From positions 2,221,357 through 2,274,679 of the forward strand of contig NZ_NMUQ01000001.1 of NCBI RefSeq assembly GCF_002233675.1: a stretch of DNA of 53,323 nt. Reading direction: 5' to 3'. The notes under the pieces were generated by a model. The model did not search any database, was not told where the DNA came from, and saw only the letters and a list, made by a program, of their open reading frames with translations. Of the stretch, positions 22,154 through 53,323 are shown piece after piece. A program made the position numbers and the translations under genes. Position 1 is the stretch's first letter; each line of letters begins with the position of its first letter. This stretch comes from Paenibacillus herberti (lineage in GTDB: Bacteria > Bacillota > Bacilli > Paenibacillales > Paenibacillaceae).

Positions 22154-23305
22154 ATGGATAAGGATACCCTATTTTCTTCATTTGGTAAATGGGTTGCACC
22201 CATTTTTTCAACAACGTTTTTAGATCAACTTGCTCAGAATCACGCAGATGCCTACGTCAAGAAGCTTACGGTTCCGGCCTATTTGAAACTATTCTTGCAT
22301 GCCCAGCTTCAACAGCGCGAAGGACTCCGGAGCATTGCAGATGATGTCCTGAGCAAAGACTTTCAGCAAGAACTGGGTTTTGAGTCCATCTCGTTTAGCC
22401 AGCTATGCCGCAAGAACAACCAGGTGAATCCTGCCTTGCTCGAAAATCTGTTTGAGCAGCTAGCCAGGAAGGTCCTACGTAGCGAAGGCGCCACGGCTGC
22501 AGATCGTAAAACCGTCCAGGTGATCGACTCGACCACCATTTCCCTGTGCCTGCAGAGATACAAATGGGCCGAATTCCGTCAAACCAAAGCGGGCATTAAG
22601 ATTCATCTACGTCTGGCGTTTATGGGGAAAGAGAGCGTTCTGCCTGAGCGTGCGACAATTACGACGGCGAAGAAAAACGACCGTACACAGATGGACGCCC
22701 TTATCGACGAGGAAGGCGCCACGTATCTATTCGATCGCGGTTATGTGGATTACAAGGCGTTCGATGATTACACGGAGCGCGGCATCCACTTCGTCACCCG
22801 GCTGAAAAACAACGCTGTCATTGAACCCCTAGAATCCTTCCCCATCCCGATGGAAAGCAGGGTGACGATGGATGAACGCGTACGGATCGGATCGGCGTCC
22901 AAGCGGGCTAAGCGGGAGTACCGCATGATTGAAACGGCGGATTCGGAAGGAAATCTGCTCATCCTAGTGACCAACCGCTTCGAACTGACGTGCGACGAGA
23001 TTTCGGATATGTACCGGAGCCGCTGGGCAATTGAAACGTTCTTCAAGTGGATGAAGCAGCATCTTCGAATCAAACGGTTTTACGGCACCAGCGAACGGGC
23101 CGTGCAAAACCAGGTCTGGATGGCGCTCATTGCCTACTGCCTGCTCGTGCTGGTGAAAAAAAAGACGCAGACGCCGCATTCGCTGCTGATGCTAAGCCGC
23201 TGGCTCCGGGTACTGTTGTGGAAGCCGGCAGAGCAATGGTTAAGGCGGATTCATCGGCCACCGAGCCGCAAGTCGGCAGGACGCCGAAGGTTGAATTCAA
23301 CCTGA
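22154..23305 (+). CDS. IS4-family DDE transposase
   Basis: 383 residues. Catalytic residues are in VIDSTT, LFDRGYVDYKAF and the YREK-type stretch YRSRWAIETFFKWMKQHLRIKRF, which defines the IS4 family. The N-terminal part (YLKLFLHAQLQQREGLRSIADD) is the usual helical domain. It fills the element and seems intact. Weak promoter elements lie in 22078-22105. Confidence 0.95.
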   Translation: MDKDTLFSSFGKWVAPIFSTTFLDQLAQNHADAYVKKLTVPAYLKLFLHAQLQQREGLRSIADDVLSKDFQQELGFESISFSQLCRKNNQVNPALLENLFEQLARKVLRSEGATAADRKTVQVIDSTTISLCLQRYKWAEFRQTKAGIKIHLRLAFMGKESVLPERATITTAKKNDRTQMDALIDEEGATYLFDRGYVDYKAFDDYTERGIHFVTRLKNNAVIEPLESFPIPMESRVTMDERVRIGSASKRAKREYRMIETADSEGNLLILVTNRFELTCDEISDMYRSRWAIETFFKWMKQHLRIKRFYGTSERAVQNQVWMALIAYCLLVLVKKKTQTPHSLLMLSRWLRVLLWKPAEQWLRRIHRPPSRKSAGRRRLNST

Positions 23306-25252: not shown

Positions 25253-26000
25253 ACTGCTTATCGTTGATGATGAATGGATGATATCGGATAGCCTACGGTC
25301 CATGGAAGAGTGGAAAGAACGTAACATCGAGGTCATCGGCACAGCTGCAAATGGAGAAGAAGCGATACAATTGCTGGAGCAACAGCATGTGGATTTCATG
25401 ATTACAGACATTCATATGCCGGATATGGACGGGCTGCAGTTGCTTCAGCATGTTTACGAACAGATGCCTAGCCTGCAGGTTGTCGTCATTAGCGGCCATA
25501 CTGAATTCTCCTATGCGCATAAGGCTTTGAAATACAAAGCCAAAGGGTATGTCCTCAAACCGCTTGATACGGATGAATTGCTGAGCATCATCGATGAGAT
25601 GATAGCAAATGCAGTGACTACTGCTGCAGCGACGAAATCGCATCCAATGGAGCCCATGTCTCTGACCTATCAGGAATCGATCGTACTGCGGGCCAAATCA
25701 TTCATTAAAGACCATATGGATCAACCTATCTCCTTGGTAGATGCGGCCGATGAGGTCCGTCTGACAGCGCATTACTTCGGTCAAATGTTCAAAGCTGTAA
25801 CCGGTGAAACCTTCCTCGCTTACTTGACCAAGGTTCGCATGAATAAAGCCTGCGAGCTTCTCAAAAATCCCGAGCTCAAGCTCTATGATATTTGCCGATT
25901 AGTTGGATATGTGGAAGCCAATTATTTCTCAAAAGTATTTCAAAAAACGAAAGGCCTGTCGCCTAAGGATTTTCGACAGAATTATCTTAATTCCCCTTAA
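25239..26000 (+). CDS. AraC-type response regulator, YesN-like
   Basis: 253 residues: receiver domain (D10, D11, phosphoacceptor D57 in ITDIHMPDMDG) and a C-terminal AraC DNA-binding domain (ISLVDAADEVRLTAHYFGQMFKAVTG, then LYDICRLVGYVEANYFSKVFQKTKGLSPKDFR). It starts inside the kinase gene, so the pair is co-translated. YesN proteins are usually longer; here the linker is short, about 35 residues. Confidence 0.93.
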   Translation: MDLYKLLIVDDEWMISDSLRSMEEWKERNIEVIGTAANGEEAIQLLEQQHVDFMITDIHMPDMDGLQLLQHVYEQMPSLQVVVISGHTEFSYAHKALKYKAKGYVLKPLDTDELLSIIDEMIANAVTTAAATKSHPMEPMSLTYQESIVLRAKSFIKDHMDQPISLVDAADEVRLTAHYFGQMFKAVTGETFLAYLTKVRMNKACELLKNPELKLYDICRLVGYVEANYFSKVFQKTKGLSPKDFRQNYLNSP

Positions 26001-26184
26001 CCGTATCGCAAAGAGCTTGCTATCCAATTCTCAAAACTATTATTCTACTGGGACAGTTGTCAGAGTTCATGTCCCTGCGCCCATCATACATTGTAGATAG
26101 GAAGTTCATCATGAGTTGATAGATCTTTCATAGGCTTAAGTCGTAACACCAAGTCAGTCTCGTATTGATGTGGGCATGCACAAT

Positions 26185-26360
26185 TTGTATGATTTTTCAC
26201 TCAACATGCATTCGGGCCGGGCTGATATTTTGGATATTGTACGATAAATCATTCAAAATGGCTGGGCATAGGCGACGAAAGCTCGGCTTTGTATGTTTTA
26301 TCACACAAAGTGTTGAAAAGAGGCGGCTATAAACCGAATTTTATACGATAAATCGTACAA
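26185..26360. repeat. four 20-bp palindromes at an exact 52-bp period
   Basis: Motifs start at 26185, 26237, 26289 and 26341: TTGTATGATTTTTCACTCAA, TTGTACGATAAATCATTCAA, TTGTATGTTTTATCACACAA, TTATACGATAAATCGTACAA. All fit the inverted-repeat consensus TTGTAYGATWWATCRYWCAA. Each spacer is 32 bp, GC-rich in its centre, and spacers 2 and 4 share CGAAAGC almost in register (26276-26282 and 26379-26385). The period equals five helical turns. The array follows the YesN-like gene and precedes a bidirectional terminator; 26001-26184 shows no gene. It may be phased operators or a degenerate tandem repeat. Confidence 0.85.
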
Positions 26361-26503
26361 AAAAAGTTACACCGCCCACGAAAGCCGAGTTCAAACCCTA
26401 TTCCATTCAAATCGAGAGGAGACGCACGCTCCGATAATCCCGAACAGCGCAGAATTACTCGGACGTTTTTCATCTACCTATATAGGCACCTAAGTAGTTA
26501 CAA

Positions 26504-26550
26504 CAAAAAAACGGCTATCTACGTAACTAACTCCGTAGTAGCCGTTTTTT
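26504..26550. terminator. bidirectional rho-independent terminator
   Basis: Stem ACGGCTATCTACG / CGTAGTAGCCGT (one bulge) with an A run before and six Ts after, between the YesMN/repeat region and the converging GH2 gene. Confidence 0.9.
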
Positions 26551-26561
26551 CATTCTCACTA

Positions 26562-28361
26562 TTACCGACCAGCTTCCTGACCCGTCATAATCTTCCGGAT
26601 TTCTTCGAGCGGCGCTTTGGGTTGTCGGTCATACGTCAACAGTCCGTTGATCTCCTGCTCGACGTCTGTCAGCTGCGTATAACAGAATCCCTGCACAACA
26701 GGTGAAGTGAACATCGGATTCACGACGGCCGCTAGTTTACGAAGGAAGTCCTCCTCGTTATCGGCACCGGAATAACCCCAGCCATCCCAATCGCTCTTTT
26801 TAAAAGCAATTCCACCAAATTCAGAGATAAGCATCGGCTGTCCTTGGTAGGATGCCCCGCCCACGAAGATTCGCCTGTTAGCTGGCATTGCGCTCAGCGC
26901 TGTATCCATCGTAGCATACCTCGCTTCTAGCACCTTCTGGCTGCTTTCATAGTCATGAATCGTTAGCAAATCTGTGGTCATCTGTTCCCATCCATCGTTG
27001 TACACGACCAATCTGGTCTCATCCAACGATTTCGTCAGATGATACATAGCCAGACCATGCTGCTGCTGACGTTTGTCAATTTGCACATTCGGAATGCCCC
27101 AGCTTTCATTCAAAGGGACCCATGTCACGATGCACGGATGATTGTAATCGCGCTCGATGATATCCATCCATTCTTTTGTAAACCGCCGGACATACTCTTC
27201 GGAATATTCATAAGCGTTCGCCGCTTCTCCCCAAACTAAGAGACCAAGTTGGTCGCACCAGTACAGGAAACGCGGGTCCTCCGTTTTCTGATGTTTTCGG
27301 ACACCGTTGAAACCCATCGCCTTTGTTAACTCCACATCTTGCTTCATTGCTTCATCGCTTGGCGCCGTCAAAACGCCATCAGGGAAGTAACCTTGGTCAA
27401 GTACAAGCCGCTGATAGTATGGACGGTTGTTCAGACACAGCTTTCCGTCCTCGACGGACACTTTCCGCATACCGAAATAACTGCTCACCTCATCTAGAGT
27501 CTGTGCTTTCTGAATCACCTTGAACGTTACATCATACAGATTCGGATGCTCCGGACTCCACAGCCGCCCAAGTCCGTGTTCGGCAAAATCCTTAAGGCCC
27601 ACAACCCGGCTCTCCTCGCCATGTTTGACCGTGTATACATCATCGGAAATAACCGTCCCCCGAAATGAAATACTCACCTGTAGCTGGCACTCTTTGCCCC
27701 CCTCAAGTCCTTCCACAAACGTCCGTAAGCGGATTTCGTTCCGATCAATGTCTGGCGTAAAGGTTACTTTCTTCAGATATACAGCACTGACAGGCTCAAG
27801 CCATACGCTTTGCCAAATTCCTGTTGTTCGTGTATAAAAGATACTTGCCGATTTTTCCAGCCAATACTGCTTGCCCCTAGGCAGCGTCAAGTCCCGGCTA
27901 AAATCCTCGGCACGCACGACTAGTGTGTTCACTCCTTCCTGAAGTAGAGAACCGATCGCAGCGGAGAAAGGAGTATGCCCGCCTTCATGCACCGCCGCAA
28001 GCTGCCCGTTCACCCATACCTTCGCACAATAATCCACTGCGCCAAAATGCAGAATGGTTTCTTTCCCCTTCCAATTGGCGGGAATCTCGAAGCTGCGTTG
28101 GTACCAAACGACGTCATGGAATCCAGGGTCCTCTATTCCGCTGAACTTGCTTTGAAAAGTAAAAGGCACTTGGATAGTCCGGTCAAATGAGCTACCGCCT
28201 AGACTGAGACTGTCCCGATACCAGCCCTGACTTTCCCCCACGTTGGCATCGTCAAAATTAAACGCCCATTCTCCATTCAAGCACAGCCATTGTTGACGGG
28301 TAAATTGGGGTCTTGGATATTCCATCCGTCTAGTTTTGATAGGATCCAGCATTTGATTCAT
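26562..28361 (-). CDS. glycoside hydrolase family 2 protein
   Basis: 599 residues, no signal peptide, so intracellular. Domains in order: sugar-binding jelly roll (about 30-180, with WYQRSFEIP and FGAVDYCAKVWVNG), immunoglobulin-like domain (185-295) and TIM barrel. The acid/base is E419 in PLNESWG and the nucleophile E514 in LISEFGG. GH2 enzymes release beta-galactose, glucuronic acid or mannose, and some act on alpha-L-arabinopyranosides; the specificity is not clear. AAGGAGAG lies 13 bases before the ATG at 28361. It completes the arabinan-like operon. Confidence 0.92.
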   Translation of the reverse strand: MNQMLDPIKTRRMEYPRPQFTRQQWLCLNGEWAFNFDDANVGESQGWYRDSLSLGGSSFDRTIQVPFTFQSKFSGIEDPGFHDVVWYQRSFEIPANWKGKETILHFGAVDYCAKVWVNGQLAAVHEGGHTPFSAAIGSLLQEGVNTLVVRAEDFSRDLTLPRGKQYWLEKSASIFYTRTTGIWQSVWLEPVSAVYLKKVTFTPDIDRNEIRLRTFVEGLEGGKECQLQVSISFRGTVISDDVYTVKHGEESRVVGLKDFAEHGLGRLWSPEHPNLYDVTFKVIQKAQTLDEVSSYFGMRKVSVEDGKLCLNNRPYYQRLVLDQGYFPDGVLTAPSDEAMKQDVELTKAMGFNGVRKHQKTEDPRFLYWCDQLGLLVWGEAANAYEYSEEYVRRFTKEWMDIIERDYNHPCIVTWVPLNESWGIPNVQIDKRQQQHGLAMYHLTKSLDETRLVVYNDGWEQMTTDLLTIHDYESSQKVLEARYATMDTALSAMPANRRIFVGGASYQGQPMLISEFGGIAFKKSDWDGWGYSGADNEEDFLRKLAAVVNPMFTSPVVQGFCYTQLTDVEQEINGLLTYDRQPKAPLEEIRKIMTGQEAGR

Positions 28362-48498: not shown

Positions 48499-48574
48499 GG
48501 GGCCTTAGCTCAGCTGGGAGAGCGCATCGCTGGCAGCGATGAGGTCAGGGGTTCGATCCCCCTAGGCTCCACCA
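48499..48574 (+). tRNA. tRNA-Ala (GGC), intact copy
   Basis: 76 bases with CCA encoded. Acceptor stem GGGGCCT / AGGCTCC pairs fully (one G-U). Anticodon GGC at 48532-48534. Own promoter upstream and terminator downstream. It is the parent-like copy of the two minus-strand versions. Confidence 0.95.
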
Positions 48575-48588
48575 AATTAAAACCTTGT

Positions 48589-48614
48589 AGCACCGGGAAA
48601 TCCCGGTGCTTTTT
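48589..48614 (+). terminator. terminator of tRNA-Ala
   Basis: AGCACCGGGA / TCCCGGTGCT stem with AA loop, then TTTT GATTTTT. Confidence 0.92.
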
Positions 48615-48660
48615 GATTTTTATATAGAACAAGAATGGCTACAGATGCGTTCTTGGTCAC

Positions 48661-49009
48661 GCGTCTGGTCACATGAGTTGAATTTTCATTGCTTTTATAA
48701 AGCTAAACAGTTGATTGCGCGATGGTTTGTGTACACTAATTTTCGAAGCTAAGAGTTCTCGTAAGCTTAATGCTACGATTGCGATCCTTCATTCTTAAAA
48801 AGCATATCTCCGAACTGAAGTGCGGTCTCTTTGTGAACTGAAGGCAAAATGGTTAGCCTATTGCCGAGCATCCTATTATACAGACAGACAATGGTTGGGA
48901 GGGAATGGAACTCTTGGTCGAATGAAAGCCGATGGAGATCAAGACGAAGAAGGTCTACAACGTCACCGAAGGTCTGTACGCATTCAATTTCTAATCAAGC
49001 GTTATGGGG
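48661..49009. other. no recognisable gene
   Basis: About 350 bp without a supported gene. A weak plus-strand frame at 48820-49044 has no ribosome site and no familiar motif; it may be a decayed remnant. Confidence 0.5.
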
Positions 49010-49034
49010 GAGAGCGGGTCACCGCTCTCTTTTC
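49010..49034 (+). terminator. rho-independent terminator
   Basis: GAGAGCGG / CCGCTCTC stem with GTCA loop, followed by TTTT. No clear gene precedes it, which hints at a lost or decayed gene. Confidence 0.75.
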
Positions 49035-49079
49035 TATTGCATGAAGCGTGATAAAAATAAGGAATCAGAAAGAGGGAGT

Positions 49080-49361
49080 CTATTTGCTCTTCAGATTCTC
49101 CTCATCATTTTTCTTATTTTGGGTTAATTTTATTTTGTTTTGTCGAGAGTAAGTTGATATTGAAACAATCAGATTTAATATTCCGACTAGAATCGTCCCT
49201 ATCATTAAAATAAGTTGAACTGTAGTAGGTCCAGGTACTGTCCCGTCGCCAACTGCTCCAGTTCTGGGTTGTTTCATATCCCAATAACCATATAATAATC
49301 CAATCAGAGGGACCAGAATCGTTACAACGCTCGCCACCATGTATGCCACATACTTATTCAT
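49080..49361 (-). CDS. small membrane protein with two helices
   Basis: 93 residues from the ATG at 49361, which follows GGAGGAG. Two hydrophobic helices (YMVASVVTILVPLIGLLYGYW and VQLILMIGTILVGILNLIVSIS) and a basic, lysine/asparagine-rich C-terminal tail. Divergent from the exported protein gene, 155 bp away. Not recognised; an immunity-like or holin-like role is only a guess from size and position. Confidence 0.7.
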   Translation of the reverse strand: MNKYVAYMVASVVTILVPLIGLLYGYWDMKQPRTGAVGDGTVPGPTTVQLILMIGTILVGILNLIVSISTYSRQNKIKLTQNKKNDEENLKSK

Positions 49362-49516
49362 TTTATCTCCTCCTAACAATTAAATGATACTACACATTAT
49401 AACCTCGTAGTACCTAAAATGGAAAAAAGGGACCTTAGTACTATATATTCCCTTACCAAATTCAGGTTAAAATATTTTTGTAAATATTAGAAAATTCTTG
49501 TTTTTAAGGAGGAATT

Positions 49517-50752
49517 ATGTCAAAGAACAGAATTAAGAAACTTGTCGTGGCAATGAGTCTAGGTTCACTACTAAGTTTAACAGTGCTTCAACCGATTTCG
49601 GCTGAAAACTCATCTGTGAGTAATATCGAGAAAAAATCGCCGATCACAACTGTGGAATCATACATAATTGAAACTTATTCTGATACACAAAATTCTGAAG
49701 GTTATTTTGAGAAAATTGGATATGAAGTTGTCAGTGCTACAACGAAGATCGTTGAGGGTACTGATGATACGATCGAAGCTGAGACAAGTTCCGTTTCTGA
49801 TTTTTACAGCAATGATGGATCTTATATCAAAACGGTAATCAAAAATGATCACGCAACAAACAATTATTCAACGGGTAAAGCTCTCGTTAAAAATCAAAAT
49901 GTTACTACATCCTCGCCTGCGAACGATAATTCTCAACTTGCTTCTTTTATTAAGAACAAAGATACATTTGAGAAGAACACTTTAGATACGGATCAACAAT
50001 TAAAACTTTCCAAAAAGATTGAAGAGCGGGTCAAACTCCTTCCTGATGCCGAATCTCGAGAAGTAAAGGGAATATCCCGTGACGAGCTAGAGAAGGTAAA
50101 ACAAAAAATTGCTGAGCAGACGTCAAAGAGAACAGTGTCGAATACCACAAGTGACTCGTTCGTTGATACCACTCTTCCGTCAGTTGCGGATCAGTCGAAT
50201 TTTTCCACTAGCAGTTCAATGATGGTAAGTACGTGTCCATCTAACACCAATGGTGTTGAATCTTGTGGGGCATGGGATAATTATTATCGGCATAATATAT
50301 TAAATGGGGATTTTACTGTGCAAGTCTTGGGGCATGCTGGAGAAGATAGCATGTATTCGAGATTGCATGGTAGTATTGGCACGGACACTGCTAAGGCTAC
50401 AAGACTTTCCACGTTTAAACAACAAATTAATACCTATGAGAGATATATCGTAGATGATCTTGAGGCAGGAGTATTTTGGGAGATTGTTGGTTGGGCATCG
50501 GCGCTTGCTTCATTCATTCTTTTGGTACAAGGCTTTGGAACTGGACCCGTGGGATGGGTAGCGGTGGTAGCGCTCTACTCGAATGCGATCCTTACGTTTG
50601 CAGGCTTTACCTCTTCAGCATATGCAACCAATGCCAGGCTGCAAATAAGCAAGAATGCAGCTTCACAACTAAGCAATGCTAAAACTACTCATTACAACAT
50701 GTTATACAATTTTGATCATAATTACGGTTCTGTATATGAGTCTGGATTCTAA
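49517..50752 (+). CDS. exported protein of unknown function with C-terminal hydrophobic hairpin
   Basis: 411 residues. A signal peptide (KKLVVAMSLGSLLSLTVLQ) is cut likely after PISA. Residues 30-235 are charged and serine/threonine-rich. The C-terminal 175 residues begin with a cysteine pair (TCPSNTNGVESCG), have conserved-looking DNYYRHNILNGDFTVQVLG, and two hydrophobic helices joined by FGTGPVGW (about 325-375). AAGGAGGAA precedes the ATG. I do not recognise a family. The layout, a long pro-region and a membrane-active hairpin, is compatible with a secreted toxin or envelope protein. AT-richer than the chromosome genes to its left and set in accessory DNA. Confidence 0.75.
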   Translation: MSKNRIKKLVVAMSLGSLLSLTVLQPISAENSSVSNIEKKSPITTVESYIIETYSDTQNSEGYFEKIGYEVVSATTKIVEGTDDTIEAETSSVSDFYSNDGSYIKTVIKNDHATNNYSTGKALVKNQNVTTSSPANDNSQLASFIKNKDTFEKNTLDTDQQLKLSKKIEERVKLLPDAESREVKGISRDELEKVKQKIAEQTSKRTVSNTTSDSFVDTTLPSVADQSNFSTSSSMMVSTCPSNTNGVESCGAWDNYYRHNILNGDFTVQVLGHAGEDSMYSRLHGSIGTDTAKATRLSTFKQQINTYERYIVDDLEAGVFWEIVGWASALASFILLVQGFGTGPVGWVAVVALYSNAILTFAGFTSSAYATNARLQISKNAASQLSNAKTTHYNMLYNFDHNYGSVYESGF

Positions 50753-50994
50753 TTTTAATAAACCCGCCCATGACGGAGAGTGCTTAAGCTAAGGCATGGA
50801 AATGGTTCTCCGTTTAGTAGTGTAGAGACTGCTGCTTTTCTTGAATTATTCAAAAATGGAAATATTTTTCGGCATTGTCTAACCAAAGTTGATTTGCTCC
50901 CCTTTAAGTAGACAAGTTAAAAAATAAACCGGCTACTTGGAAGTCACTGAAGAACTCACCAGTTTTACATTTCGGTTGCACATATAATTGCAAT

Positions 50995-51036
50995 GAAGAC
51001 ATCCGTCCAACGATTGGACGGATGTCTTCTCTTTTA
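50995..51036 (+). terminator. strong hairpin, likely terminator
   Basis: GAAGACATCCGTCC / GGACGGATGTCTTC, a perfect 14-bp stem with a 7-nt loop, then TCTCTTTT. It stands 240 bp after the exported protein gene; the space between shows no gene. Confidence 0.75.
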
Positions 51037-51331
51037 GGAGCTGAATCGGACTGTATTTACCGTTGTTTTTGTCGATTAACTTAAGGTTCACGGCAAATAT
51101 AGGGCTGATCTGCTGTTCGTAATCCTGTTGCATTTTCGGCGTGATGCCTTTTCGATCGTCTACAAACAACTGAGAGTGGTTCTGAATCGCTTCCGTCCTT
51201 CCATCGGGTGAGGACATTGGCATGAATGCCATGTCATCTGCGAGCTGGGAAAATGACTATTCTTCTTTCAAAACTTCTAGCACTAGATGTGCTTTTTCCT
51301 CGGGAGTGAACTTCCTTCCTGTAGATTTCAT
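51030..51331 (-). pseudogene. IS3-family transposase orfA remnant
   Basis: From the ATG at 51331 the frame reads MKSTGRKFTPEEKAHLVLEV, stops at TAG after LKEE, and continues with SFSQLADD, then EAIQNHSQLFVDDRKGIT and MQQDYEQQI, all typical of IS3/IS911-type orfA. The end is scrambled and orfB is absent. A decayed element. Confidence 0.8.
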
Positions 51332-51449
51332 ACAACTAAGATACTCCTTTTTCGATGTTTAGTTTCTATGTAGCATTATAGATAATGGATCTTTTATTGG
51401 TCGAGTAGGCGGGGACTTTCCGTCGCGGATTGTACCCCTACTCCTCACA

Positions 51450-51482
51450 GATCCGTACGGGCGCATTTTACGCATACGGCTC
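51450..51482 (-). ncRNA. group II intron domain V
   Basis: The minus strand reads GAGCCGTATGCG, TAAAAT, then CGCCCGTACGGATC: the catalytic hairpin of group II introns, as in Ll.LtrB (GAGCCGUAU...GUACGGUUC). It is 12 bp after the maturase stop. Confidence 0.85.
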
Positions 51483-51634
51483 TTCACATCATCCTTACAG
51501 CTTTGGCATGTCGTAGATATTGACGTAGACGCGCGGTTTGGGCAGCTTGAAGTTCTTTAAGACTTCGAAAAATCTCTCCTTCGTGAAACTCTTTTTCTGG
51601 CTTCTGCAATTTAGCCATTTCAGCATCAGGTTAA

Positions 51635-51641
51635 TCGTTAT
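51635..51641 (+). repeat. left copy of 7-bp target duplication
   Basis: TCGTTAT, repeated at 53014-53020. Confidence 0.88.
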
Positions 51642-53013
51642 CTATAAATGAGCAAATTCACTTCCAGTAAACTGTAAAACAAAAAAGAAGAGAGACAAAG
51701 CGTTCTCCTTGTGGTAAAAAGTAGTCACCACAACTGATTTTCACCAAGGAGAAATTGCTATGTCTCATACTTTCATCCTACCCGATCATGCCGCGCTTCG
51801 CAATTACTTGTTACAACACCGGTTACCGCTGTATTTTTCTAAGCCGGTCGTGGCGCATATCGAGACCTACATGGCGGCGGCTGCAGCGAAAGATTTTCGT
51901 GGCAAGGTAGTGGATCTAGCCGAGTATAGTAGCTGCCACCGTACGACACTTGGGCATTTTCTGGCCGAAGGCAAGTGGGATGAAGCGGTGTTGCAAAACA
52001 AAGTCAAGGTCGAATCACTTCGGTACGTGGTTCAAATAGCCAAGCAGACAGCAGAGCCGCTGTTTGTTATTCATGATGATACGATCTCCAAGAAGACAAA
52101 GCCTTCGTCACAGGCGCAATCTCCGATGGAGCAGACCGGGTTTCATCATTCTCACTTGGAAGGAAAAGTGGTTTGGGGCCATCAAGTTCAAGCGACGGTG
52201 GTCCAAAGTAACGACACTTCTTTGATCCATTCCATTGACTTGTACGACAAAACGAAAACGAATCCCGACGGCACGGTGTATACAAAAATAGATCATGTGT
52301 GCGATATAGCCGCTACGCTGCCTCTTCCGCCTCATGGCGGTTACGTGCTTGTGGATTCTTGGTTCACTTGCTCTCGCGTAATCGACAGCTACGCCTCTGC
52401 TGGCTACCATCTTATTGGTGGTCTTAAAACCAATCGGATTATCTACCCGCAAGGGATCCGTATCTCCCTAAAGGATTTTTCCGCCCATATCCGCAAAGAA
52501 GACGTTCGCCTTGTGACCGTGAACGGAACTTCATACTGGACATACCGATATGAAGGCGCCTTGAACGATATTGAAAATGCTGCCGTTCTGCTGTGCTGGC
52601 CGGAGCAAGCGTTTGGTGTGCCTAAAGCGCTACGCGCTTTTTTGTGCACGGATGTTTCCTTGGATACGGAAACGATTTCCATGTATTACAGCAAGCGTTG
52701 GCCCATTGAGATTTTTTTCCGCCAGTCCAAAAACAATCTTGGCTTCGATACCTACCAGGTTCGTTCAGCAACGGCATTTACCCGCCTATGGGCGTTGCTG
52801 GCTTGGACACATTTGTACTGTACTACAGGGTTAGGGCAACCCTGCCCTTTTGGCGAAGGATTGCGTACGGTTCGGAAGCAAGTCCAACTGGACCGACTTC
52901 AGTTTGTCTACGATTGCGGCAAGAACGGCATTCCATTTCACGTAGTTCGTGAACAGTTCAAGTTGGCTTGACCTATTTTGGGATTTTTTGTATCCGTTTT
53001 TGCTCATTTATAG
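51642..53013 (+). mobile_element. intact IS4/IS701-like insertion sequence, 1372 bp
   Basis: Perfect 15-bp ends: CTATAAATGAGCAAA at 51642-51656 and its complement at 52999-53013. Flanked by the direct repeat TCGTTAT. One transposase gene fills it. It lies in the maturase gene of a group II intron and is a different IS from the one at 22 kb. Confidence 0.9.
51760..52971 (+). CDS. IS701/IS4-like DDE transposase
   Basis: 403 residues. Likely catalytic residues: D in FVIHDDTISKKT, D in VLVDSWFTCSRV and E in SKRWPIEIFFRQSKNNLGF. The N-terminal part (VDLAEYSSCHRTTLGHFLAEGKWD) is the helical DNA-binding domain. AAGGAGAAA precedes the ATG. Appears intact. Confidence 0.9.
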   Translation: MSHTFILPDHAALRNYLLQHRLPLYFSKPVVAHIETYMAAAAAKDFRGKVVDLAEYSSCHRTTLGHFLAEGKWDEAVLQNKVKVESLRYVVQIAKQTAEPLFVIHDDTISKKTKPSSQAQSPMEQTGFHHSHLEGKVVWGHQVQATVVQSNDTSLIHSIDLYDKTKTNPDGTVYTKIDHVCDIAATLPLPPHGGYVLVDSWFTCSRVIDSYASAGYHLIGGLKTNRIIYPQGIRISLKDFSAHIRKEDVRLVTVNGTSYWTYRYEGALNDIENAAVLLCWPEQAFGVPKALRAFLCTDVSLDTETISMYYSKRWPIEIFFRQSKNNLGFDTYQVRSATAFTRLWALLAWTHLYCTTGLGQPCPFGEGLRTVRKQVQLDRLQFVYDCGKNGIPFHVVREQFKLA

Positions 53014-53020
53014 TCGTTAT
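53014..53020 (+). repeat. right copy of 7-bp target duplication
   Basis: TCGTTAT, identical to 51635-51641. Confidence 0.88.
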
Positions 53021-53323
53021 ATCATAATAGGCGTGTACCCTCTCGAAATTATCCGTAATTCCATAATATCGGTAGTGCCCTGCCAGTTTGGCCCGGAGCG
53101 TTTTGAGAAACATCTTCTGTTCCATATGACGATTAGCCTTGATCCATGTTTTCATCGCTTTAACCTTTTGTTTGAATTTTTTTCCACTTGTTTTGCGTTT
53201 AACCCGAAACATACCGCCGTCCAGTAAGCCAAAAACCATCTCAACGAGCTCATTCTTGCTAAGCCTCATCGCTTGCTCCCGGGCTAGTTTCATGAGATCT
53301 CCTCCGTTGTATTCCTTGTTAAG

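Follow-up and report, generated by a model that had tools for sequence, protein, structure and literature searches.

The array in the window and its surroundings

The window, by which we mean the whole stretch of 53,323 nucleotides of Paenibacillus herberti DNA analysed here, holds an array of four palindromic units with a 52-bp period at 26184..26361, and placed on the plus strand after clade A relatives, in which the array is followed by its cognate gene in that direction. The four dyads, of 20 bp each, are TTGTATGATTTTTCACTCAA (26185..26204), TTGTACGATAAATCATTCAA (26237..26256), TTGTATGTTTTATCACACAA (26289..26308) and TTATACGATAAATCGTACAA (26341..26360), none of them being given a strand of its own, and their starts at 26185, 26237, 26289 and 26341 are exact 52-bp steps that leave spacers of 32 bp. 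The dyads are imperfect, with at least two mismatched positions in sites 1 to 3. A search of both window strands with the consensus, allowing up to three mismatches, returned 10 matches, eight of them in the array, against 0.15 expected, and none of 100 shuffles of the window reached that number, so that the four regularly stepped motifs which an earlier note on this DNA had described are borne out.

On one side of the array a YesN-like regulator gene ends at 26000, at a distance of 184 bp, and on the other a gene of the opposite strand ends at 26562, the two genes being convergent. Features of transposon origin lie on either side of it on the plus strand, namely what remains of an inner right terminal repeat of the IS66 family (26130..26147) and the outer right terminal repeat of an IS66-derived MITE, ATATAGGCACCTAAGTAGTTAC (26480..26501). 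Because homology with the other copies begins only at about 26125-26130, the MITE copy of the window is taken to be truncated on its left. A decayed intrinsic terminator lies 3' of the array (26422..26469, plus strand). Its long hairpin, absent from the list of the terminator scanner and shown by folding, is intact in P. pasadenensis MER37, in the copy linked to the gene (-30.1 kcal/mol, z -8.0), and not in the window (-8.5 kcal/mol, z -0.5). The MITE copy stops just before a further inverted repeat, seen by eye at 26504-26551 between runs of A and T and between the convergent genes, which is likely a two-way terminator. Farther away, the window ORFs at 22154-23305 and 51760-52971 presumably resemble IS4-type transposases.

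Copies in the genome and in the family

A consensus search of the genome and its relatives, which the earlier note had proposed, proved productive, as it gave 82 forward-strand matches in the genome itself, compared with one for a reversed-pattern control. BLAST with the 321 bp of array surroundings gave 24 matches in the same genome, about 20 of them separate arrays, and the 20 arrays fetched, together with the window copy, make up the set of 21 copies considered below. The 52-bp spacing is strict in all 18 aligned four-unit copies, and 17 of the 21 copies are clear of every ORF of at least 100 aa.

At least one MITE end is found on 15 of the 21 copies (inner right end in 15, outer right end in 10, left end in 7). 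The five complete MITE copies, four of them 607-638 bp long and the fifth 294 bp, are built in the same order, that is, the left end GTTACTACTTAGGTACCT, a piece of TnpC coding sequence, the inner right end, the array, the terminator-like hairpin and the outer right end. The left end matches the autonomous IS66 element L075 over 30 bp with 96.7% identity, and an autonomous IS66-family element with matching ends and without the array is indeed present in this genome. Five array copies contain a relic of the IS66 transposase that scores above the PF03050 cut-off, one of them only with its neighbours in frame, and the TnpC relic, a part missing from the window copy, is 82% identical at the nucleotide level to the autonomous IS66 copy. 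In their autonomous-type IS66 terminal repeats, their TnpC relic and the perfect 8-bp target duplication seen in two of the five complete copies (the other three have none), these elements are like other IS66-family MITEs, from which they differ in bearing the array as cargo between the inner and the outer right end. In view of the MITE ends on 15 of the 21 copies, the duplications and the autonomous IS66, we therefore consider the array in this genome to be largely cargo of an IS66-derived MITE. Six copies (L027, L028, L031, L032, L033 and L035) show none of the three MITE ends by pattern, the inner end being diverged in L033, and other routes of spread therefore exist. The IS66 copies L075, L076 and L079 of this genome have runs of N and short duplications in near-identical copies, which are perhaps assembly joins, the details being uncertain.

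The palindrome was also found in three of seven other genomes of the genus, in one of them weakly. Across the Paenibacillaceae, its 22-bp form with up to two mismatches occurs in 53 of 394 genomes and in 9 of 19 genera, some of these genomes having a single site only, and, together with the roughly 20 copies in this genome, this distribution bears out the idea of a repeat family of Paenibacillus and its kin. One family genome has as many as 422 sites, while the reversed control never exceeded one per genome. Arrays of 2-14 units were seen in 18 of the 20 regions read, from several genera and with spacers that are often unrelated within one array; the largest have 19 units of the window-type palindrome and, in G255, 25 units of a related palindrome, and the repeat units are variable in many arrays and near-identical in some. 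In the phage and plasmid collections searched, none of 50,697 and one of 72,556 records, respectively, gave a match.

The spacing was counted in loci picked by motif or gene and not by spacing, with related copies and tandem duplicates counted separately, and these loci contain 348 distinct neighbour pairs within 300 bp, 332 of them within 80 bp. In 327 of these 332 pairs the spacing is 51-53 bp (264 at 52, 58 at 51 and 5 at 53), the remaining five having distances of 50 bp (two pairs) and of 49, 61 and 72 bp (a single pair for each). The selection on spacing suspected in the earlier note is supported by these numbers, while the exact locking to 52 bp that it had described holds for the aligned four-unit copies of this genome and gives way, in the family, to values that include 51, 53 and a few others. 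Such constancy between spacers that are often unrelated makes this an unusually clean natural case of helical phasing under selection. The palindromes were more conserved than the spacers in all four sets compared, among them nine copies from G005 (0.880 for palindrome columns versus 0.621 for spacers, p 4e-13) and the copies from G000 (0.959 versus 0.882), where this is so although the partner is gone.

The gene beside the arrays

In the Paenibacillaceae, arrays of dyads of about 22 bp with a period of 51-53 bp adjoin genes of one undescribed protein family. In a comparison of ORFs over 20 regions, one shared ORF adjoins the array in G040, G021, G013 and G054, and a relic of it lies in another contig of G040. 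Relatives of this candidate partner were found in 300 of the 394 genomes of the family, which often have several of them. Intact homologues are, for instance, those of Cohnella terricola (L118:4981-5673) and of P. pasadenensis MER37 (L205). When close homologues are defined as those of at least 340 bits, a cut that was chosen after the list had been inspected, the palindrome is found in 18 of the 19 genomes that have one and in 35 of the 375 others (p 2e-16); the best-matching 18 genomes are all palindrome-positive, and the nineteenth, G080, is below the threshold but has weaker sites flanking the gene. Six genomes with at least 15 sites are without a close homologue (G000, G043, G173, G315, G317 and G343), and in G343, G315, G317, G043 and G173, which have 15-266 sites, the partner was either lost or is a different one. 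Large arrays also occur at L124:4388-5029 (13 units) and L135:2666-3363 (14 units), with units of 51-52 bp that resemble one another, and the ORF comparison gave no nuclease ORF for either region.

A scan that uses no motif, and that chains similar dyads at 49-54 bp near partner genes and in shuffles, found arrays near 19 of 36 genes in a first set, against none of 36 shuffles, and near 42 of the best 80 of 353 named relatives, against none of 80; the two sets overlap, and two of the 42 arrays are far from the gene (L259 and L273). For the other 38 of the 80 relatives no array was detected at the scan threshold. No array adjoins the gene of G009, and that of G328 lies 1.3 kb from the gene. Over 14 segments of the window, the only array returned by the same scan was that of the four palindromes.

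The clades of the protein have their own palindromes. In clade A, where the palindrome is TTTGTAYGA-TCRTACAAA, the array usually precedes the gene, with L209 (downstream) and L213 (both sides) as exceptions, while in the clades with half-sites of the TATATGA- or TGTATTCGA-type, and in a distant clade with mostly the GCA-type, it is usually downstream; in G053, G080, G052 and L253 arrays stand on both sides of the gene. The genome studied here has a second, distant pair of its own (L168, C7:274500-280500), in which 17 units of TCAAGTAGTCAAAGCTACTTGA with a 51-52 bp period lie just downstream of a minus-strand gene at C7:277346-277996. A similar pair is found in G007 (L177), and two pairs with different motifs are present within one genome in G007, P. 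piscarius and P. sedimenti. Motif and protein co-diverge (Mantel tests on 40 loci, r 0.77 and 0.62, p 0.0005), a correlation that could come from shared ancestry alone. The winged helix of the protein is a candidate for palindrome recognition, one that is not singled out by the partial Mantel test, which gave a partial r of 0.00 for the winged helix and of 0.58 for the nuclease domain. In G062, the gene-linked arrays at L195:2926-4018 and L196:3341-3845 consist of higher-order units of about 155 bp with three different palindromes, the outer arms of which differ yet remain complementary.

As to the protein itself, we read its approximately 228 aa as a putative DUF559/Vsr-like nuclease domain plus a winged helix, on the strength of weak matches. 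In a Pfam search of 33 members with E values up to 0.1, AbiEi_4, which is of the winged-helix type, matched 17 (best 5.9e-5) and DUF559 matched 11 (best 5e-5). Against the PF04480 cut-off of 20.6 bits, L180 scored 23.6, L165 17.2, L167 13.6 and L118 14.6, and the only one of the ten rescored members to lie above the DUF559 cut-off is the distant L180, beside whose gene no array was found; none of the ten had a winged-helix match above that family's own cut-off. Searches of PADLOC, PHROGs and NCBIfam gave weak matches only (best 0.00063, 0.00094 and 0.0041, respectively), and a PDB profile search gave winged-helix regulators, none better than 0.024. Among the invariant columns are D70, H90 and R94, with D70 and H90 present in all 33 aligned members and E83 in at least 90%. 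D70, E83 and H90 are presumably the catalytic residues. The D..E..H core pattern is shared with DUF559/Vsr-like nucleases and with TnsA, the latter presumably being a nuclease plus winged helix as well. The protein differs from all of these in its weak matches, with one scored member above the cut-off, and in its association with palindrome arrays.

Many arrays stand without the gene. At 43 of 48 array loci there is no trace of it; in the other five, L057, L083 and L121 are gene-linked themselves, L133 has a relic and L182 a weak match (0.008). Decay of the gene as the origin of solo arrays is not supported, given the 43 of 48 array loci with no gene trace. Comparison of L027 with G007 gave no boundaries for the solo arrays outside MITEs, the intergenic stretches being too different, and among duplicate genes the G062 pair alone was informative, its right edge entering a low-complexity tract. 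The gene also carries stops in G013, G007 and G367. With regard to more distant relatives, 46 of 398 genomes of the class have a match, 20 of them outside the Paenibacillaceae. Among 20 distant loci, two of them from genus g5 of the family and the other 18 spread over 17 genomes that do not belong to it, a search with relaxed period found chains in only three, two of them G+C-rich simple repeats, and therefore the array partnership looks, as far as tested, like a trait of the Paenibacillaceae.

Fate of the partner gene here and interpretation of the array

In G007 the nuclease locus consists of the array and a gene with one stop, and its flanks are 90% identical to C1:2268837-2269927, which is the right end of the window, and 95% identical to C1:2275211-2276553, just beyond it. 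The place syntenic with the array and nuclease gene of G007 thus starts within the window (48571..53323, plus strand), where other DNA is found here, including the transposase-like ORF at 51760-52971 and an IS66 fragment, the ORF at 52973-53293, whose beginning resembles that of the L075 TnpC. What is left of the gene, its last bases, lies at C1:2274849-2274895, about 170-216 bp past the window end and next to an IS66-family left end. The match, which covers the gene's last bases and the sequence that follows, is of 47 bases with 81% identity and is weak (E 4e-4), and it is therefore carried by its position. Synteny with G007 and this remaining 3' tail together indicate that the partner gene has been lost here, a loss that would most simply be explained by insertion of an IS66 element followed by later changes. 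The MITE cargo has its match in the G007 locus over a segment that runs from the array to the gene start (query 1190-1499), and the natural inference is that an IS66 copy at the nuclease locus gave rise to the MITE.

We consider it probable that the window array is an orphan brought to its place by a transposon, one copy of a phased array which, elsewhere, lies beside a nuclease/winged-helix gene and presumably serves as its binding site; the dyads indeed look like the phased protein-binding sites that the earlier note had predicted. Each dyad would be read by a dimer of the partner protein and, since a period of 52 bp amounts to some five turns of the helix, the dimers would stack along the same side of the DNA in a regular nucleoprotein assembly, which in turn might position or restrain the nuclease. 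Gene and array could further behave as a selfish unit, with arrays that last longer and spread farther than the gene does, this being the least certain of the steps proposed. The window copy is probably left without a partner and may now be inert. Since a candidate partner is at hand and both protein and palindrome vary in nature, recognition, phasing and activity are directly testable.

A more ambitious version of this reading, which we put forward tentatively and hold to be possible but not likely, is that of a selfish element without transposase or integrase, in which a nuclease/winged-helix protein assembles on an array of its own, phased at five turns, arrays multiply and outlive the gene, and many orthogonal protein-palindrome pairs coexist in a family; multiplication could possibly result when cuts guided by bound arrays are repaired with array DNA as the template. 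Should the pair prove to be a selfish or defensive system, it would be an additional type beside CRISPR, TIGR and partition arrays. The two-part system departs from CRISPR, TIGR and ParB arrays in defining features that were tested, and no description in print of a palindrome array with this partner protein was found among titles and the openings of abstracts, a survey outside which most subscription journals lie. With CRISPR the arrays share short palindromic repeats, spacers of about 30 bp and an adjacent nuclease-like gene, and they differ in repeats that vary within an array, those of the window at several positions, and in spacers that are copied, drifting or unrelated. The shared adjacent protein gave weak matches to CARF, CasR and Cas11 (best 0.0059) and none to Cas families in Pfam or NCBIfam, so that the doubts already voiced about a CRISPR array were justified, the neighbour not being Cas by the libraries searched.

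Among the alternatives, a centromere-like or chromosome-organising site, at which the protein or a host factor would condense or partition DNA through the arrays, and for which cutting would not be the role, seems to us rather unlikely. The geometry does recall sopC of the F plasmid, where twelve repeats of 43 bp each contain a 16-bp inverted repeat to which a ParB dimer binds (PMC9178275). Both are tandem repeats of some tens of bp with one short dyad each, beside a gene for the binding protein (candidate here; dimer binding is known for sopC, according to PMC9178275), and the position of 17 of the 21 copies of this genome outside sizeable ORFs, as well as the persistence of arrays past gene loss, would suit such a role. 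The present arrays differ in their 51-53 bp period, free spacers, solo occurrence across the chromosome and nuclease-like partner, and the linked protein gave no match to a ParB family at E 0.1 or better in Pfam and NCBIfam. The patchy presence in 53 of 394 genomes and the stops in the gene are unlike a housekeeping function, and pairs with two different motifs in one genome and the invariance of D70 and H90 in all 33 members also speak against it.

An RNA reading, according to which a transcript of the array supplies the adjacent nuclease with guide or antitoxin RNA in the form of hairpins or spacers, much as in TIGR arrays or type III toxin-antitoxin repeats, is unlikely as well. It draws on the location of arrays directly up- or downstream of a nuclease-like gene, on the strong terminator between array and gene in P. 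pasadenensis, on a dyad centre that is mostly a run of A or T, and so loop-like, and on the covarying outer arms of G062. RNA hairpins would be expected to show wobble pairs on one strand, with both arms changing together. Read on the gene strand, however, gene-linked arrays have 66 G.U against 53 A.C pairs (11 arrays versus 10), which is no strand bias. When arms were permuted within genomes (398 units, 34 genomes), their pairing was near expectation at most positions, the deviations being a small positive coupling at distances 5 (z 2.9) and 4 (z 4.7; 0.970 versus 0.967) and a negative one at distance 6 (z -3.4), and the dyad centre is strongly non-palindromic because of the A or T runs. Covariation was strong at several positions when pooled over all genomes and was gone or smaller within genomes, and is therefore mostly clade structure. 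In the window, each site has one A.C on the plus strand, which in all four becomes G.U on the minus strand, and on that strand units 3 (-5.0 kcal/mol, z -3.0) and 4 (-5.7 kcal/mol, z -3.9) have folds more stable than those of nearly every shuffle; units 1 and 2 there, like all four on the plus strand (none beyond z -1.9), fold weakly. The serial RNA hairpins that the earlier note had entertained are thus not favoured for the family, these two units being what speaks for them in the window. Hairpins would also need no 51-53 bp spacing, and a search of 25900-26700 of the window against Rfam gave three matches, all far below the gathering scores. Wobble balance and arm independence, in our view, point to a protein dimer on DNA rather than to RNA hairpins. 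TIGR-Tas arrays, which have repeats of 8-12 nt with 9-nt spacers and a Nop-domain protein, likewise stand up- or downstream of one gene, variably between loci, and are followed by a terminator (PMC12045711). Here the dyads are of 22 bp and the spacers of about 30 bp, and the partner protein gave no Nop-domain match in Pfam up to E 0.1. For type III toxin-antitoxin systems, in which tandem RNA repeats are followed by a terminator and then by the toxin gene, the order of array, terminator and gene in P. pasadenensis is a possible parallel, but in other clades the array is mostly downstream.

It is quite unlikely that the array is an inert repeat, a mere MITE passenger whose regularity was inherited from one event of tandem duplication. 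The MITE parts on 15 of the 21 copies and the absence of the partner gene here are in line with that idea, but palindromes and period persist across genomes while spacers are unrelated even inside one array, and the palindromes are the more conserved part. Finally, a phased operator for the neighbouring YesN-like regulator, for which the short distance to that gene's end would speak, is extremely improbable, since about 20 copies lie elsewhere in other surroundings, the window copy bears MITE ends and stands between convergent genes, and the recurrent neighbour of the arrays is the nuclease/winged-helix gene.
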